From the NCBI RefSeq assembly GCF_011764425.1, contig NZ_BLPF01000003.1, positions 124,001 to 188,000 of the forward strand: 64,000 nucleotides of DNA. The letters run 5' to 3'. Of the stretch, positions 58,660 to 60,693 are shown piece after piece (position 1 is the stretch's first letter; the number at the start of each line of letters is the position of its first letter). A model generated the notes under the pieces. That model worked only from the letters and a program-made list of their open reading frames with translations. It was not told where the DNA came from and searched no databases. The stretch comes from Phytohabitans houttuyneae. Lineage in GTDB: Bacteria; Actinomycetota; Actinomycetes; Mycobacteriales; Micromonosporaceae. The position numbers were made by a program, and so were the translations under genes.

Positions 58660-60140
58660 ATGGAGCGCAGCATGCCCCGGCTGACCGTCATCGGCACCGG
58701 ATACCTCGGCGCGACGCACGCCATCTGCATGGCCGTGCTCGGCTACGAGGTGCTCGGCGTCGACGTCGACGGTGCCAAGGTGGCGCGGCTCGCCTCTGGC
58801 GAGGTGCCGTTCTTCGAGCCGGGCCTGCCCGAGCTGCTGGTCAAGGCGCTGGAGTCGGGACGGTTGCGGTTCACCACCTCGTACGCGGAGGCGGGCGACT
58901 TCGGCGACGTGCACTTCCTGTGCGTGGGCACGCCGCAGCGCCCCGGCTCGTACGCGGCCGACCTGCGCTTCGTGGACGCGGCCGTCACGGAGCTCGCGCA
59001 CCACCTGCACCGCCGCGCGCTCGTCGTCGGCAAGTCGACCGTGCCGATCGGCACCGCCGCCCGGCTCACCGAGATGGTGCGGCGGCTCGCGCCGGCCGGC
59101 GACCGGGTCGAGCTGGCGTGGAACCCGGAGTTCCTGCGCGAGGGGTACGCGGTCGACGACACCATGCGGCCCGACCGGCTGGTCTTCGGCGTCGCGTCGC
59201 CGTGGGCGCAGGAGCGGCTGCGCGCGGCGTACGCGCCGGTGCTCGCGCAGGGCACCCCGCCGTCGTCACCGACCTGGCCACCGCCGAGCTGGTGAAGGTG
59301 GCGGCCAACGCGTTCCTGGCCACGAAGATCTCGTACATCAACGCGATGGCCGAGGTGTGCGAGGGTACCGGCGCCGACGTGCGCGACCTCGCCGAAGCCC
59401 TCGCGTACGACGACCGGATCGGCGGGCGCTTCCTCAAGCCGGGGCTGGGCTTCGGCGGCGGGTGCCTGCCCAAGGACATCCGCGCCTTCCTGCACCGGGC
59501 CGAAGAGCTGGGCGTGGGCCAGGCGGTGTCGTTCCTGCGCGAGGTCGACGACATCAACAAGCGCCGCCGGGCGCGGACCGTCGACCTGGTGCGCGAGGTG
59601 GTGGGCGGCGAGCTGGCCGGGGTGCGGGTGGCCGCGCTCGGCGCCGCGTTCAAGCCCAACTCCGACGACGTGCGCGACGCGCCGGCCCTCGACGTGGCCA
59701 GGGCCCTGCACGCGGCCGGCGCCGCCGTGCGGGTCTTCGACCCGGCCGCGATGGAGAACGCGCGGCGCACGCACCCCGAGCTGTCCTATGGGGACAGTGC
59801 GATGGACGTGGCGCGCGGCGCCGACGTGGTGGTGCTGCTGACCGAGTGGGCCGAGTTCCGTGAGATCGACCCGGTCGCCCTCGCCGCCGTGGTCGCGCAC
59901 CCGCGCATCGTCGACGGCCGGCACGCGCTCGACGCGGCCGCGTGGCGGGCCGCGGGCTGGGAGTACCGGGCACTCGGCCGTCCCCCGACCCTGTTTCCAA
60001 AATCCTTGCCGGGCTGCGCCGAGCCCAGACGACGACCGGCGGCGCCGGGCGTAAGGCCGCATACAACACCGGTATGCGACCTTGCGCCCGACTTGCCGGA
60101 TCGCCGCCTGGATCCCGGCTCGCCTCGACAAACCTTTTGA
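58660..60140 (+). CDS. UDP-glucose/GDP-mannose dehydrogenase family (frameshifted; end altered)
   Basis: From ATG 58660 (or 58672, with GGAG upstream) the frame reads PRLTVIGTGYLGATHAICMA, the NAD site, through GKSTVPIGTAARL and AWNPEFLREGYAVDDTMRPD. It breaks at CCCC 59255-59258; the frame one base earlier continues VTDLATAELVKVAANAFLAT, then GLGFGGGCLPKDIRAFLHRA with the catalytic Cys, to GWEYRALGRP near 59985. After that about 50 codons are read from an imperfect palindrome (59989-60147) before a stop. It oxidises a UDP-sugar at C6, supplying a uronic acid. Confidence 0.88.
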
Positions 60141-60147
60141 AACAGGG
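59989..60147. repeat. 159-bp imperfect palindromic element at the end of the dehydrogenase gene
   Basis: Outer ends CCCTGTTTC (59989) and GAAACAGGG (60139-60147) are perfect inverted repeats that extend imperfectly. The centre has CGGGCGTAAGGCCGCATAC (60046-60064) against GTATGCGACCTTGCGCCCG (60072-60090), 17 of 19 complementary, with a 7-base loop. It looks like a MITE- or REP-like insertion. Confidence 0.75.
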
Positions 60148-60153
60148 CCTAGA

Positions 60154-60197
60154 CCACCCTGGGCCGCCGCTCACCCCCGGAGGGGTGGCCCAGGGTG
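60154..60197. terminator. Bidirectional hairpin terminator candidate
   Basis: CACCCTGGGCC pairs with GGCCCAGGGTG (60187-60197), with nested CACCCC/GGGGTG. It lies between the dehydrogenase (plus) and the DUF6924 gene (minus), which converge. Confidence 0.6.
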
Positions 60198-60219: not shown

Positions 60220-60693
60220 TCAGTCGGCGGCGAAGCCGCGGTGGATGCGCTCCGGGTCGCCGGCGGCGGCCTCGGCGAACTCGTCGAAGCCCATGTTGGC
60301 GATCGCGAGGTTGCCGTGCACCTCGGCCACGGCGGCGGGGGTCAGCCGGAACTCGCGGCCGAACCGCATCTCCTCCGCGAACTGCTCCTCGTCCAGGCAC
60401 GCCTCGCGGGTGAGGGTGGAGACCGCGATCAGCGGGTACGGGTCGCGCATGGTGGCCGCGTCCGCCACGAACAGCACCCGCAGCATCTTGTCGCCGGAGA
60501 CCGCGGCGAGCACCTCGTCCACGGTGGACCCGGCGTACGCGGGGTCGTCGACCACCTGCGCGTCCACCGTCCAGTCTTCGTCCCCGTCGAGCCGGTCGAC
60601 GACCGTGCGCCAGGCGGCGTCATCGGTGTAGTCCACCCGGACCACGAGGGCGATGAACTCGTCGTCCTCGCCGCGTTCGATCGTCGGTAGCAT
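60220..60693 (-). CDS. DUF6924-like small protein
   Basis: The 157-residue protein has FIALVVRVDYTDDAAWRTVV, YPLIAVSTLTREACLDEEQF and FGREFRLTPAAVAEVHGNLA ending NMGFDEFAEAA. This pattern matches small actinobacterial proteins of unknown function (DUF6924). GATACT seven bases before ATG 60693 suggests a leaderless message. I assign no activity. Confidence 0.7.
   Translation of the reverse strand: MLPTIERGEDDEFIALVVRVDYTDDAAWRTVVDRLDGDEDWTVDAQVVDDPAYAGSTVDEVLAAVSGDKMLRVLFVADAATMRDPYPLIAVSTLTREACLDEEQFAEEMRFGREFRLTPAAVAEVHGNLAIANMGFDEFAEAAAGDPERIHRGFAAD

Follow-up and report, generated by a model that had tools for sequence, protein, structure and literature searches.

A palindromic sequence inserted at the end of a dehydrogenase gene of Phytohabitans houttuyneae, at positions 59984-60152 of the window (the whole stretch of 64,000 nucleotides analysed here), is very probably a non-autonomous MITE moved in trans by transposases of the IS5 family. 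The evidence comes from its further copies, its ends, which are like those of IS5-type ISs, the 4-bp target copies, an empty site in related species and the association of the copies with stop codons. According to the mechanism we propose, an IS5-family transposase would recognise the terminal repeats in trans and insert the element at YTAR, mostly CTAG, with duplication of 4 bp. The CTAG target would often include the TAG stop codon of a gene, and insertion there would be harmless because the duplication leaves a stop in place. The window copy would have entered the TAG stop of a gene of the UDP-glucose/GDP-mannose dehydrogenase family (UGDH), ahead of a hairpin that lies downstream of it. 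Mutation of the left CTAG to CCCG would have come later, the frame then reading 51 codons into the element.

Limits, ends and fold of the element

An earlier note on this DNA had described an imperfect palindrome with perfect 9-bp ends. The palindrome is real: folded as single-stranded DNA, positions 59980-60160 had an energy of -48.2 kcal/mol, compared with -30.2 +/- 3.2 kcal/mol for 200 shuffled sequences, none of which was equal to it (z -5.6), and a palindrome arising by chance was thereby ruled out. The perfect 9-bp ends were found at 59989-59997 (CCCTGTTTC) and 60139-60147 (GAAACAGGG). On comparison with intact copies, for example CTAG-GCCCTGTTT...AAACAGGGC-CTAG, the limits of the element shifted to 59984-60152 on the forward strand (169 bp), the extension consisting of both 4-bp target copies (left CCCG, right CTAG) and one more end base per side. 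The left target copy, at 59984-59987 of the forward strand, is degenerate, as judged by the codon phase of the ORF and by four relatives, and reads CCCG where intact copies have CTAG. The right target copy, CTAG, lies at 60149-60152 of the same strand. The left terminal inverted repeat, ACCCTGTTTC, occupies 59988-59997 on the forward strand, where intact copies begin with G, and the right one, GCCCTGTTTC, occupies 60139-60148 on the reverse strand.

The interior of the element has a conserved core at 60013-60123 (forward strand), which was scored at 120.6 bits by the covariance model R1, a model that contains close relatives of the window copy. By alignment, three features were located in this region on the forward strand: a conserved internal box on the 5' side (CCCAGACGACGACCGGCGG, 60024-60042), an apical hairpin, ATAC-AACACCG-GTAT (60061-60075), with 97% mean pairwise identity over 27 rows, and a conserved internal box on the 3' side (CTTGCCGGATCGCCGCCTGG, 60092-60111). 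MITE features include the size of 169 bp and the terminal inverted repeats, 9 bp and perfect in the window copy and longer in intact copies. No transposase gene was present within the 169 bp, and the frames crossing the element are read-through frames. Each of the MITE features tested was found, with the exception of a resident partner matching the window subfamily exactly.

Copies in the genome and in other genomes

A search of the genome for further copies, as the earlier note had proposed, was productive. BLAST with positions 59960-60180 against the own genome (11.34 Mb, 5 contigs) gave at least 41 matches with E values up to 0.001, located at no fewer than 32 distinct places as reduced by hand, with the best 40 of 133 candidates scored. 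Most of these copies are fragments, and the core model gave at least 8 full-core matches among 9 candidates scored. Shortened copies at L011, L016, L024, L009 and L041 have the element ends and no apical part, with breakpoints that vary when compared by eye; they may be products of later decay. In P. flavus a longer form of about 242 bp, read at L152 and L153, has an enlarged loop with a second hairpin. Four end pairs at about 242-bp spacing were found in that genome, the longer form occurring at several places, and a 21-base piece of its insert is present in another P. flavus locus, L145. Short stretches with related ends (GAAGCAGGGCCTAG, GAAGCAGGGCCCAG) were seen beside a full copy in the right flank of L003 and at 1465-1560 of L058, as if produced by nested or tandem insertions. 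Another dispersed repeat, with GTGGTCCGGACCGTTGC or CGGCCTCACCCTCCGCGG, was observed at L063, L075, L183 and L019, and at L063 and L183 it forms an inverted pair around a transposase locus.

The element is not an isolated one, a point on which the earlier note was incomplete: with an intact copy as the query and the best 6 candidates taken per genome, matches were obtained in at least 44 of 121 genomes, the own genome included, several of them weak. The element thus occurs in many soil actinobacteria belonging to one family. Matches were strong, with E values of 1e-38 or better, in the other Phytohabitans genomes, five of five. Seven genomes from outside the family also gave matches, which were clear in G097 and G114, from one other family of the order (E about 1e-10), and weak in the remaining five. 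A 23-base core pattern was found in 34 stretches, which among named genomes belonged to P. flavus, P. suffuscus and P. maris alone. When the core model was run over 396 genomes of the phylum, it recovered the own genome and, besides it, just two weak matches, of 39.3 and 38.7 bits; with 9 candidates scored per genome in this search, a lack of matches counts for little. One of the 396 genomes, the own genome, contained the exact loop. The two weak matches lie outside the order: L230, whose loop, GTACAACACCGGTAC, is a paired change of the loop stem, and L231, a long inverted repeat with ends GGGGGGCGTGTCGCCGATCAGGG.

No match to the element was found in phage and plasmid collections. The exact loop 15-mer was present in 44 stretches of IMG/VR contigs, which were taken as chance occurrences because the model score was low (19.3 bits at best, E 0.67) and the pairing of the flanks was poor (2-7 of 12); a phage or plasmid origin was rejected on these grounds. 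Searches of Rfam gave no match above the gathering score in 9 loci. In a set of 7 loci, six matches fell short of the gathering score, and three of these lay on the element; MIR8622 on L003 ranked highest, with 43 bits against a gathering score of 197. These weak matches were taken as a chance likeness of a long hairpin, and identity with an Rfam RNA was rejected since no family reached its gathering score. A description of the element was not found in the literature searched, as judged by titles and the starts of abstracts, with subscription journals and preprints outside the coverage.

Probable IS5-family partners and the ends of the element

Among 62 IS5-type loci from the own genome and its relatives, 26 rows, some of which represent one element twice, had YTAR-flanked inverted ends of the element type, spaced 774-1,055 bp apart. 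The four IS transposases tested all scored above the cut-off of NF033580, the IS5 family. When 54 distinct element ends were compared each with the best of 27 IS ends, the mean agreement was 12.65 out of 16 and 42 of the 54 agreed at 12 or more, as against 6.68 +/- 1.84 for a control set of 1,679 other 16-mers following YTAR in the loci (46 at 12 or more). At the level of sequence, the resemblance of the element ends to IS5-type ends as a class stands. CTAGGGCCTGTATCAAAG, an IS end of P. suffuscus, agrees at each of 18 bases with one end of an element subfamily that occurs in P. suffuscus and P. maris. One base of that subfamily end is changed in a P. flavus copy, and one P. maris IS end differs from it at 1 of 18 positions. 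An IS end from G059 matches an element end from G026 at 15 of 16 positions.

For the narrower proposal that element ends follow single ISs, an apparent signal did not hold up on checking. With a hand-picked list of 31 element ends (G020 and G067 dropped) and 18 IS ends, 17 of 2000 shuffles were equally good, and this signal was gone when the ends were taken by script (1129 of 2000 shuffles equally good, or 392 of 2000 with repeats merged). The earlier note had suggested looking for a transposase with matching ends. The likeness to IS5-type ends holds at the level of the class, and an IS ending precisely in GCCCTGTTTG/C could not be found in the own genome, either among end pairs about 1 kb apart or among 12 DUF4096 loci. 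The sole IS of the own genome having YTAR-flanked ends of this kind carries GCCGTGTATCGAAG, and the IS partner closest to the ends of the window subfamily, L219, agrees at 13 of 16 positions and belongs to another genus. In P. flavus no end pair about 1 kb apart was found, despite the many near-identical copies in this species. IS701-type (DDE_5) transposases of the own genome were also considered as partners and led nowhere; one of them has CTAG-flanked ends, which differ in sequence from those of the element. At L120 and L137 the conserved core was seen with ends unlike the GGCCTGT type (e.g. CCTAGGAGGCGGGTCGTCG).

Conserved core and variable ends

Alignment A1 contained 27 rows from 25 genomes, representing 16 genera and two families, with three rows from the own genome. 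Not included were L124, with a 2-base loop deletion, the truncated L127 and L132, L140, L093 (P. maris) and other Phytohabitans copies. Mean pairwise identity was 0.97 in the apical 15-mer, 0.49 and 0.51 for the stems next to the loop, and 0.75 and 0.66 for the internal boxes. The arm segments that join the boxes to the ends had 0.68 and 0.66, the two ends themselves 0.51 (columns 11-28) and 0.50 (columns 159-174), and the outermost columns, with the target and the first end bases, 0.76 and 0.63. These values are to be read with the way the rows were obtained: they were first found by whole-element BLAST and were centred on the loop motif, favouring loop conservation, and the search design favours the core in that relatives with the same ends and another core would be missed. 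The predicted hairpin has 52 pairs, of which 40 show at least one paired change, and 90.1% of cells pair. The covariation score was 0.501, compared with 0.162 +/- 0.009 for shuffled and at most 0.135 for slid controls; related rows can beat shuffles without any structure, and the slid control keeps relatedness. The core has a G+C content of about 73%. It also has a direction, because the R1 score of the window copy was 120.6 bits for one strand and 49.9 bits for the opposite strand.

The usual picture of a bacterial MITE is one of bare transposase ends that flank a centre free to drift, and a core better conserved than the ends would be unusual for a MITE. This could be explained by selection on the core as a structural module, acting as folded DNA or RNA and present in at least 16 genera, with the ends being swapped to suit the available IS5-type transposases; we offer this explanation tentatively and regard it as rather doubtful. 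Its use would probably lie in the element's own propagation, since the orientation to host genes is random; this role for the core hairpin, as folded DNA or RNA, is a conjecture. The absence of the apical part from several shortened copies of the own genome counts against a strict need for the core.

The conservation could also be a matter of descent. The element would still be mobile, the core would be kept by descent together with recent spread, and the paired changes would come from quasi-palindrome repair without structural selection. We take this to be a serious possibility, if not a probable one. Repair in which one arm is copied onto the other would by itself yield paired changes without function, the way the rows were found favours the core, and an intact loop is not strictly needed, because the enlarged-loop form of 242 bp occurs at several places in P. 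flavus. However, recent spread predicts ends as similar as the core, and the values observed were 0.50-0.51 for the ends and 0.97 for the apical part. Moreover, repair should remove mismatches, yet 16 of 27 rows retain the same A/C mismatch at one internal pair and 13 retain it at a second, with a standard pair at these two positions in 5 and 11 of the 27 rows.

Target site and insertion at the UGDH stop codon

The target site was assessed in 57 full copies (160 bp or more, duplicates removed), a subset of 92 located copies. CTAG was present on both sides in 25 of the 57 and YTAR on both sides in 31, although in distant copies the profile may misplace the 4-bp edges. The target duplication of IS5 is described as Py-T-A-Pu, most often CTAG (PMC5493358). 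The window copy has no left CTAG, and for this reason we can only infer a duplication there. A coding-frame stop adjoined 31 of the 57 copies. Among the other CTAG sites of these loci the count was 15 of 68 (Fisher p 3.5e-4), and among Phytohabitans copies alone it was 21 of 42 (p 0.003). Coding stops were recognised by a heuristic that required 80 open codons and examined the G+C of third codon positions. No recognised stop adjoined the other 26 copies, and part of the stop excess may have arisen because insertions within genes were lost. The orientation matched that of the abutting gene in 15 copies and was opposite in 16.

The empty-site comparison, also proposed in the earlier note, was made in four further Phytohabitans genomes and covered the five UGDH copies nearest to the window gene, more distant or partial copies being left out; the element was absent from all five. 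In the closest UGDH of P. flavus (L158), of P. suffuscus (L159), of P. maris (L160) and of G004 (L161), GRP is followed by a TAG stop at one and the same codon. The other P. maris copy, L163, stops with TGA and is likewise without the element. In P. flavus, P. suffuscus and P. maris a hairpin, CCCTGGGCC...GGCCCAGGG, a putative terminator, directly follows the UGDH stop; G004 has a different sequence after the stop. In the window the same hairpin, recognised from the relatives' sequences at 60157-60195 of the forward strand, lies just past the right CTAG and is parted from the gene by the element. The order of stop and hairpin in the relatives therefore places the insertion exactly at the UGDH stop, ahead of the hairpin. 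The suggestion of a MITE-like element inserted at or near the stop was accordingly borne out and could be narrowed to the TAG itself. In contrast, the claim that the end of the gene had been replaced was not upheld, as four relatives end with GRP and a stop at the same codon and the left CTAG has merely become CCCG.

Apart from transposition, the strong hairpin with its paired changes, the many copies at gene ends and the position of the window copy between convergent ORFs (the neighbour, an ORF of 157 aa in the ORF list, lies at 60220-60693 on the reverse strand) could be accounted for by a host structure that is not mobile, i.e. one that acts as a bidirectional terminator or as structured RNA and is retained where genes converge on account of its hairpin. 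Such an origin appears quite improbable in view of the empty sites, the 4-bp target copies, the IS-like ends and the random orientation to the abutting gene; in addition, three of the four relatives share another hairpin right after the stop. Even less credible is a REP/BIME-type repeat handled by a RAYT (HUH) transposase. The element is palindromic and dispersed as such repeats are, but it has 4-bp target copies and IS5-like ends, and its 169 bp lie well outside the 20-40 bp hairpin size given for published REPs (PMC3733652). Of the two possibilities raised in the earlier note, a MITE or a REP-type unit, the first was retained and the second was not.

Loss of the UGDH stop and read-through into the element

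The UGDH gene at 58672-59984 of the forward strand, defined by ORFs and domain matches, has a frame broken near 59255-59265. The N-terminal domain PF03721 is in one frame (58672-59292), the central and C-terminal domains PF00984 and PF03720 are in another (59256-60137), and the window differs in length by one base from the relatives near 59255-59265. The break is apparently that of a pseudogene or a sequencing error. The stop codon of the UGDH frame, TAG in four relatives, is lost in the window, where codon phase places CCG at 59985-59987 on the forward strand. As the earlier note had observed, the frame passes EYRALGRP and enters the element. Starting at the lost stop, the read-through ORF (59985-60140, forward strand) stays open for 51 codons and closes at a TGA within the right end (60138-60140), and it exists because the left CTAG, which held the TAG stop, became CCCG. 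Among the 57 full copies, the window copy alone has a lost stop with a coding frame reading in.

The notion of an enzyme with a foreign tail holds insofar as the frame is open into the element, but a working tailed enzyme is doubtful because the gene is frameshifted upstream, and possibly no tail is ever produced. The 51 open codons might have suggested a true, conserved extension at the C terminus of the enzyme, and this can be dismissed, since the UGDH copies of the relatives, all five, stop right after GRP. The findings named in the earlier note as counting against its proposal, i.e. the same tail in relatives, or a lack of further copies and of an empty site, were looked for and did not occur.

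Relation to known systems

MITEAba12 of the Moraxellaceae resembles the element in that it is short and non-coding, has no orientation preference, occurs in several species of one family and forms fusions with neighbouring frames. The terminal repeats of MITEAba12 are reported to match ISs of about 1,020-1,050 bp, with the identity to the ISs confined to the ends (PMC6382973). The likeness of our element to ISs is confined to the ends in the same way: ends aside, in the 25 of 330 rows covered, BLAST of 59 copies against 26 ISs gave only short matches, of 15-30 bases with E 0.001 or weaker. MITEAba12 is described as an AT-rich element of 113 bp in which the ends are the most conserved part and the centre varies, and which had target copies of 9 bp at the insertion examined (PMC6382973), whereas the present element is GC-rich, palindromic over its full length, targeted to CTAG and more conserved in its core than at its ends.

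ERIC, Correia/NEMIS and RUP are described as non-coding mobile repeats of less than 200 bp whose transcripts form long stem-loops; some repeats of this type are fused in frame to other reading frames, and most have terminal TA motifs and are A+T-rich (PMC2229807). The element is like them in size class and stem-loop and differs from them in its CTAG target and in a core of about 73% G+C. Rickettsia palindromic elements are described both between genes and in frame within conserved protein genes (PMC2229807). They are likewise palindromic repeats read into protein genes, but the read-through seen here concerns one of 57 copies, after stop loss and in a frameshifted gene. With the IS5-family ISs (NF033580; DUF4096) the element shares the YTAR target and the type of ends, and differs from them in having no transposase.

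Regarding the biology of the host genomes, CTAG is rare (11 sites in the 64-kb window) and partly coincides with stops (15 of 68), and the duplication leaves the stop in place, which offers a simple reason for the gathering of such an element at gene ends in a G+C-rich genome. The window copy illustrates how a gene can become fused to the element by a later mutation in the target copy. What would be new about this element is a function of the core under selection, and the better-conserved centre makes selection on the interior of a MITE testable. If such selection is true, the element would be a transposon passenger with a structure as its cargo and with interchangeable ends.
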